38,518 nucleotides of DNA from Patescibacteria group bacterium. GTDB lineage: Bacteria; Patescibacteriota; Patescibacteriia; Buchananbacterales; GWA2-38-13. The notes under the pieces were generated by a model. That model ran no database searches. It worked only from the letters and a program-made list of their open reading frames with translations, and had not been told where the DNA came from. A program made the position numbers and the translations under genes. The stretch is taken from positions 1 through 38,518 of the forward strand of contig JAQTQO010000012.1 of the NCBI GenBank assembly GCA_028712155.1, in the 5' to 3' direction. Below, piece by piece: positions 9,028 through 9,490 of this stretch. Positions within the stretch are counted from its first letter, which is position 1; every line of letters starts with the position of its first letter.

Positions 9028-9056
9028 AAAAAAATAACCGGACGGTTATTTTTTTT
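9028..9056. terminator. Bidirectional rho-independent terminator
   Basis: AAAAAAATAACCG-GAC-GGTTATTTTTTTT; serves the VanW gene (+) and the minus-strand RNA locus. Confidence 0.85.
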
Positions 9057-9057
9057 G

Positions 9058-9458
9058 TAGCGAATATTTAATTTCCGGCCGCGGGCGGGAATCGCACCAG
9101 CATATCAGGAGTTTCAAGTACCTGCGCTCTCAAGCATTAAGCTACCGCGGCGGAAAAAATTTACCTCGCGAACTCTGCAGACAAGGAAGCCACCCAAAGG
9201 CGCAGTCGAGCGGGCGCCGGACGTGCCCTTACGGATGGCTCCCCGCTTGTCGTGCCTGCAGATCTCTGGACCGTGGTGAAAGGGGGTCCCCGCCCAAAGG
9301 CGGGGGAACGTGAAAAGTGCACGACGTAAAACACCAGCGGTCCAAGGATCTACAGGCACCGCATTTCCTCCCATGCTGAGGCACAAGGCGCTCCCGGAAG
9401 GGTTGTCTGCAGAGTTGGCGGGATAAAGTATTGGTTTGGCAAAGTCCAACCGTAACCC
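9058..9458 (-). ncRNA. Putative structured noncoding RNA of unknown family with a degenerate tRNA-like 3' domain
   Basis: Promoter TTGACA-N17-TAAGCT (9462-9490); 14-bp perfect inverted repeat AACTCTGCAGACAA (9171-9184 / 9403-9416); long inner helix (9252-9277 / 9331-9359); hairpin TCCCCGCC-CAAA-GGCGGGGGA; tRNA-like segment 9078-9151; terminator 9028-9056. Confidence 0.5.
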
Positions 9459-9461
9459 GGA

Positions 9462-9490
9462 AGCTTAGCATATCCTGGATGATTTGTCAA
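9462..9490 (-). promoter_or_regulatory. Extended -10 promoter for the putative ncRNA
   Basis: TTGACA-AATCATCCAGGATATGC-TAAGCT on the minus strand (TGC just before the -10). Confidence 0.55.

Follow-up and report, generated by a model that had tools for sequence, protein, structure and literature searches.

The DNA analysed here, referred to throughout as the window, comprises 38,518 nucleotides of a Patescibacteria group bacterium genome (GenBank assembly GCA_028712155.1, contig JAQTQO010000012.1), and the element in question is a structured RNA gene on its minus strand, within positions 9028–9490. An initial annotation, made by reading the sequence alone, had placed an unassigned structured RNA locus with its own promoter and terminator on the minus strand between VanW and YggU, and Pfam matches to the two flanking proteins (VanW, PF04294, E 4e-40; YggU, PF02594, E 1e-22) bear out that position. 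The analyses described below leave almost no doubt that the RNA is real and represents a new family of the class ABY1. Its parts in the window, named for the helices P1 to P4, are as follows.

9485..9490, minus strand: −35 element TTGACA, read from the sequence.
9462..9467, minus strand: −10 element TAAGCT, separated from the −35 element by a 17-nt spacer (sequence and promoter scan).
9403..9427, minus strand: 5′ strand of P1, 14 bp of it perfect, with an outward extension whose pairs covary in the window's order (fold and covariation).
9364..9402, minus strand: P2 hairpin (fold and order homologues).
9252..9359, minus strand: P3, a long arm that corresponds to the inner helix of the initial annotation (fold and order homologues).
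9173..9263, minus strand: class-wide conserved 92-nt core (covariance model R2, 74 bits in the window).
9241..9254, minus strand: proposed seed CACGACAAGCGGGG, with the class consensus CACGACAAGCAUGG (invariant columns, accessibility and complementarity).
9186..9245, minus strand: P4 arm with the apical hairpin GGC-NNNN-GCU (fold and class alignment).
9160..9184, minus strand: 3′ strand of P1, of which the part CUUGUCUGCAG doubles as the 3′ strand of stem 1 in the class-wide core hairpin.
9077..9151, minus strand: degenerate tRNA-like sequence in the interval between core and terminator (Rfam tRNA, ARAGORN).
About 9028..9057, minus strand: intrinsic terminator hairpin and U tract, T-rich on both strands (sequence and fold).

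The promoter proposed initially, TTGACA-N17-TAAGCT, is present at 9490–9485 and 9467–9462, from which transcription would be expected to start near 9455, and the terminator is T-rich on both strands as described; the elements of both recur across the class. The minimum free energy of the 271-nt core is −148.5 kcal/mol, compared with −101.3 ± 4.8 kcal/mol for 200 shuffled sequences (z = −9.86), and the minimum-energy fold contains both the perfect 14-bp inverted repeat (9171–9184/9403–9416) and the inner helix (9252–9277/9331–9359) that had been picked out initially. The helices therefore stand, but a solely nested architecture does not, as the predicted fold is a four-way junction in which P1 closes P2, P3 and P4. 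The loop of P3 in the window reads CCCCCUUUC. Two overlapping open reading frames, of 111 and 80 amino acids, are present at the locus; a protein-coding explanation was rejected because they are not the conserved part, and loop insertions vary freely while pairs covary. A mobile or repeat element was likewise rejected, as blastn returned no second full copy in the genome of the window and the exact core pattern found no match in viral contigs.

Alignment of distant matches showed that the conserved part of the RNA is a 92-nt hairpin (9263–9173 in the window), that is, the 3′ third of the molecule. The 14-bp repeat and inner helix are an elaboration of the window's own order, and the CCCCGCC hairpin cap is lineage-specific. 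Covariance model R1, which describes the order form, matches 302 of 381 class genomes, mostly with one copy per genome, and the hairpin model R2 is found in 31 of about 33 genomes of the same class versus one of about 347 from the rest of the phylum. That sole match outside the class (G475:C17:1866-1951) is weak, at 34 bits, and may be a divergent homologue, contamination or chance. Scanning GTDB for the exact pattern returned nine records, of which those carrying a group name are Magasanikbacteria, Uhrbacteria and Falkowbacteria, all groups of ABY1; the remaining records are labelled just Patescibacteria or bacterium. One family (f36; L075, L103 and L126–L135) carries tandem copies, two about 215–230 nt apart with differing seed flanks, and in the pair of genome G043 one copy pairs better with mraZ.

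In the core, the two strands of stem 1, CUGCAGG and (C/U)CUGCAG, vary freely through compensatory changes; downstream, the invariant CACGACAAGCAUG and then a long variable stem lead to the apical hairpin AAUC-N-GGC-NNNN-GCU-C-GAUU, and an invariant G-U pair is kept across the class together with the apical motif. Among 31 sequences, 21 of the 30 core pairs have changed on both sides (0 of 500 shuffles), and 92.9% are paired compared with 36–53% when the partner strand is slid. A larger, model-fitted alignment of 69 distinct rows, which includes a few weak opposite-strand matches, gives 22 of 30 pairs changed on both sides. The suggestion that pairing rather than sequence is conserved was thereby supported, with strong covariation and no protein-coding conservation. 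Our literature search, which did not reach most subscription journals and preprints, found no published account of this RNA.

The enlarged form seen in the window is shared within its order, where the RNA is present in 11 of 12 genomes; blastn located a syntenic homologue in the sister genus, again between yggU and vanW, with a fold z of −9.65. An alignment of ten order sequences supports all four helices, P1 to P4: 29 of 63 pairs show changes on both sides (none of 500 shuffles reached the observed values), and 91.3% of cells are paired versus 38–48% with a slid partner strand. Covariation in this alignment is seen in outer P1 and upper P3, and the CUGCAG-rich inner parts are invariable. An upstream insertion in the order provides a pairing partner for each strand of stem 1, creating P1 and P3; according to base-pair probabilities, these strands lie fully in P1 and P3 in the window's order and in the simple hairpin elsewhere. 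Most order members carry UUGUACCUUU...CCUCCUUUC in the P3 loop (about 9278–9330 in the window, and in order loci of the L024 type), an anti-Shine-Dalgarno-like sequence that resembles the 3′ end of 16S rRNA; the loop is possibly a second, anti-Shine-Dalgarno seed. One order locus (L043, in genome G005) has a large hairpin insertion of about 110 nt within the P3 loop.

Outside the order, the usual class form is a rod of about 130–180 nt. An exact TTGACA occurs within 400 nt upstream of the core in 61 of 63 homologous loci, and a promoter score of at least 10 of 12 is reached within 130 nt in 35 of 63 loci, compared with 19 of 815 random positions. The leader is typically 20–60 nt long and a U tract often follows 15–50 nt beyond the hairpin. 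As judged from the sequence, the RNA thus has the independent promoter and terminator of a trans-acting small RNA (sRNA).

No known RNA accounts for the core. Rfam 15, searched with all families at E ≤ 10, gave no match in the core of the window or of related loci, in agreement with the initial annotation of an unassigned RNA that lacks known motifs, although a tRNA-like sequence at 9151–9077, outside the core, had been missed. RNase P RNA and tmRNA gave no Rfam match at E ≤ 10 at the locus, to which that search was confined. Leu_leader and STnc240 were rejected, as their weak window matches fall below gathering scores and lie on terminator-like hairpins.

Within the class form, the proposed seed CGACAAGCAU is invariant and sits in an internal loop, with positions 3–12 mostly unpaired by predicted accessibility; in the window's own form it is predicted to be partly open. 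Of 286 class genomes, 204 contain the 13-mer CACGACAAGCAUG, with the RNA gene accounting for nearly all occurrences; a reversed control gave about five. Additional copies outside the hairpin are concentrated in a few families. Several of these occupy the sense strand of the mraZ leader, giving an mRNA complementary to the RNA (families f13, f76 and f30), and others are located in rsmH or, in f34, between the lgt and glycosyltransferase genes; two overlap start codons, as CC-AUG-CUU-GUC-GUG. The complementary stretch is often longer than 13 nt. The f34 copies (L158, L159 and L166, in three genomes) are exact seed complements at the lgt 3′ end and upstream of the glycosyltransferase gene. Exact matches in uvrB and in one unclear open reading frame are probably chance.

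mraZ was present in all 30 genomes tested. Complementarity to the dcw operon was assessed in 29 genomes, comparing each genome's own 24-nt seed with its own dcw sense strand against permuted seeds and combining the results by Fisher's method. The sense strand gave a combined p of 9e-7, with 9 of 29 genomes below 0.05. For the antisense strand of this region the values were p = 0.85 and 0 of 29. The mraZ leader alone gave a weaker signal (p = 0.008, 5 of 28). When ten segments of the RNA were scanned against dcw, the seed segment alone was strongly enriched (p = 8.5e-5). Individual sites in the mraZ leader include 21 nt of perfect complementarity in G020, 17 nt in G037, and about 22 paired positions in G043, located −33 to −10 from the start codon in the ribosome-binding region. 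The G043 duplex has a computed energy of −33.6 kcal/mol, versus −17.4 ± 2.9 kcal/mol for shuffled seeds, and when the whole G043 genome (884,975 bases) was scanned with RNA genes excluded, the mraZ leader was the best site (score 43; next, an unrelated site at 33). In the sister genus of the window (G001), the dcw region contains a 15-bp site.

Together, these sequence comparisons give a little better than an even chance that the RNA functions chiefly as a base-pairing sRNA acting in trans, and that the dcw operon is one of its targets. It would be a stand-alone and probably abundant transcript, with a strong promoter of the sigma70 type and a U tract at its end, in which the closing and apical stems flank an asymmetric internal loop that would keep CACGACAAGCAUGG single-stranded. 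The seed displayed in this way would pair in trans with mRNAs; in several families the partner would be the dcw operon mRNA, in its leader or early portion (mraZ, rsmH), where pairing might prevent ribosomes from binding or alter processing of the mRNA. In the window's order, the upstream insertion would capture both strands of the closing stem, giving the four-way junction and extra anti-Shine-Dalgarno-like loops, and as the seed is altered there (CACGACAAGCGGGG), the targets have probably changed.

Several observations weigh against this interpretation. A significant dcw site is present in just about a third of the genomes tested, and its position shifts between the mraZ leader, the rsmH coding sequence and the ftsL region. 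The genome of the window (G000) has no notable site in dcw for its altered seed; complementarity beyond chance, as expected of a trans-acting sRNA, holds over the 29 genomes and yielded no target for the window's own. The 3′-most segment of the RNA is also nominally below 0.05 on the sense strand (p = 0.016), with the others weaker. In genome G024 (about 96% scanned), an rsmH site ranked best with a score of 37 (next, 34), but this lies inside the permuted-seed range of 27–38 and is not significant alone; furthermore, G043 and G024 were picked for whole-genome scans on already high dcw scores, so their first ranks are consistent with the proposal but not independent support for it. The dcw lead itself came from exact 13-mer matches and G037 belonged to that lead, and the motif permutation did not preserve dinucleotides. 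Finally, a 92-nt structure is conserved beyond the needs of a pairing sRNA, which suggests a protein partner.

One alternative is a housekeeping ribonucleoprotein RNA, whose invariant loop would bind protein and whose dcw complementarity would be secondary or accidental. The near-invariance of CACGACAAGCAUG, the invariant G-U pair and apical motif, and the retention of the seed in genomes without a dcw site all fit such an RNA; the enrichment of dcw complementarity, specific to the sense strand and to the seed segment, does not, and we regard this explanation as unlikely. A 6S-like regulator of RNA polymerase, in which a rod expressed from a strong promoter would itself imitate an open promoter, is less probable still. 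The rod shape, size, near-universal single copy, strong promoter and predicted open internal loop are all appropriate, and 6S RNA (RF00013) gave no match in the window or in 12 ABY1 genomes at E ≤ 1, although this absence is a weak negative since the same model detects just 6 of 14 control genomes. However, the 3′ side of the bubble is just CUUG, mimicry of an open promoter does not need 13 invariant bubble bases, and the dcw complementarity is left unexplained.

Genomic context might instead point to an element tied to vanW, providing antisense or 3′-end control of the adjoining mRNA, as vanW is near 52 of 60 RNA loci (0 of 60 control loci) and 41 of the 52 neighbours are convergent. The side and strand of vanW are not fixed, however, differing in 11 loci, and 8 loci have no vanW nearby; the median gap is 143 nt, with no overlap with the core. 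Seed complementarity to the vanW sense strand is not enriched (p = 0.77, 48 loci), which does not support vanW mRNA as a target, and this explanation is very improbable. We give hardly any credence to the idea that the RNA is a diverged member of a known family, for example signal recognition particle (SRP) RNA. In favour of that idea, ABY1 has no small SRP RNA recognizable by Rfam, but RF00169 has no match on the window, in 12 ABY1 genomes or in any of the 116 phylum genomes sampled at the thresholds used, the core matches no RNA in Rfam, and the Ffh M domain (PF02978) is found in 0 of 12 ABY1 genomes versus 14 of 14 controls. Because both SRP RNA and the Ffh M domain are missing in ABY1, the RNA is not SRP RNA. 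By the same counts, the SRP pathway itself seems to be missing in the class.

The trans-acting sRNA that we favour has its closest precedent in StsR of Rhodobacter sphaeroides, an sRNA that acts on the UpsM/dcw 5′ UTR and works with Hfq and RNase E (PMC8307010; PMC5089854). The ABY1 RNA would be alike in its way of working, with no common origin claimed; it differs in being a rod that occurs throughout a class and carries its seed in a loop, in having no known chaperone, and in that its pairing is computed only. With 6S RNA it shares the rod of closing stem, internal bubble and apical stem, the single copy and the strong promoter, but its bubble is strongly asymmetric and nearly invariant in sequence. 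The bacterial small SRP RNA is a rod-like, housekeeping-type RNA of similar size, but the class lacks the protein domain that would bind it. sRNAs such as RsaE/RoxS carry C-rich anti-Shine-Dalgarno loops, and the CCUCCUUUC-like P3 loop of the window's order could similarly pair with ribosome-binding sites, although here the C-rich loop is confined to an order-specific insertion.

A more speculative extension, which we put forward tentatively and consider rather doubtful as a whole, combines these features in a housekeeping regulatory RNA unique to ABY1: a protein-bound rod with one invariant seed that would repress dcw and other envelope mRNAs and so coordinate envelope synthesis with division in bacteria that are themselves reduced. 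One order would have remodelled this RNA as a four-way junction carrying anti-Shine-Dalgarno loops. Patescibacteria make up a large share of bacterial diversity and are mostly uncultured, with regulatory RNAs almost unknown; an RNA that almost all ABY1 genomes keep as a single copy, that shows overwhelming covariation and that has no entry in Rfam marks a clear gap in RNA annotation. If dcw control is true, it would offer a directly testable entry to the regulation of division and cell wall without culturing these bacteria, because a laboratory host can be used to test the sRNA together with the leader.

The tRNA-like sequence at 9151–9077 scores 41.4 bits with the Rfam tRNA model and is called Ser-UGA by ARAGORN. 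Its acceptor stem is perfect, but its anticodon arm folds with an 11-nt loop and the anticodon and T stems are mismatched in the Rfam alignment, and it lacks the paired anticodon stem and normal loop of a functional tRNA; genuine class II tRNA-Ser(UGA) genes lie elsewhere in the genome. As the element is absent from the 10 order homologues and was seen in the window's genome alone, it is not a defining part of the RNA, and we read it as a decayed or captured tRNA. Its loop contains UUGAAA. No tRNA-Phe(GAA) was called among the scanned tRNA loci of this genome, which may mean nothing as the assembly is incomplete. One called tRNA in the same genome (L241; G000:C8:43071-43145) has an irregular four-base anticodon (gtta).
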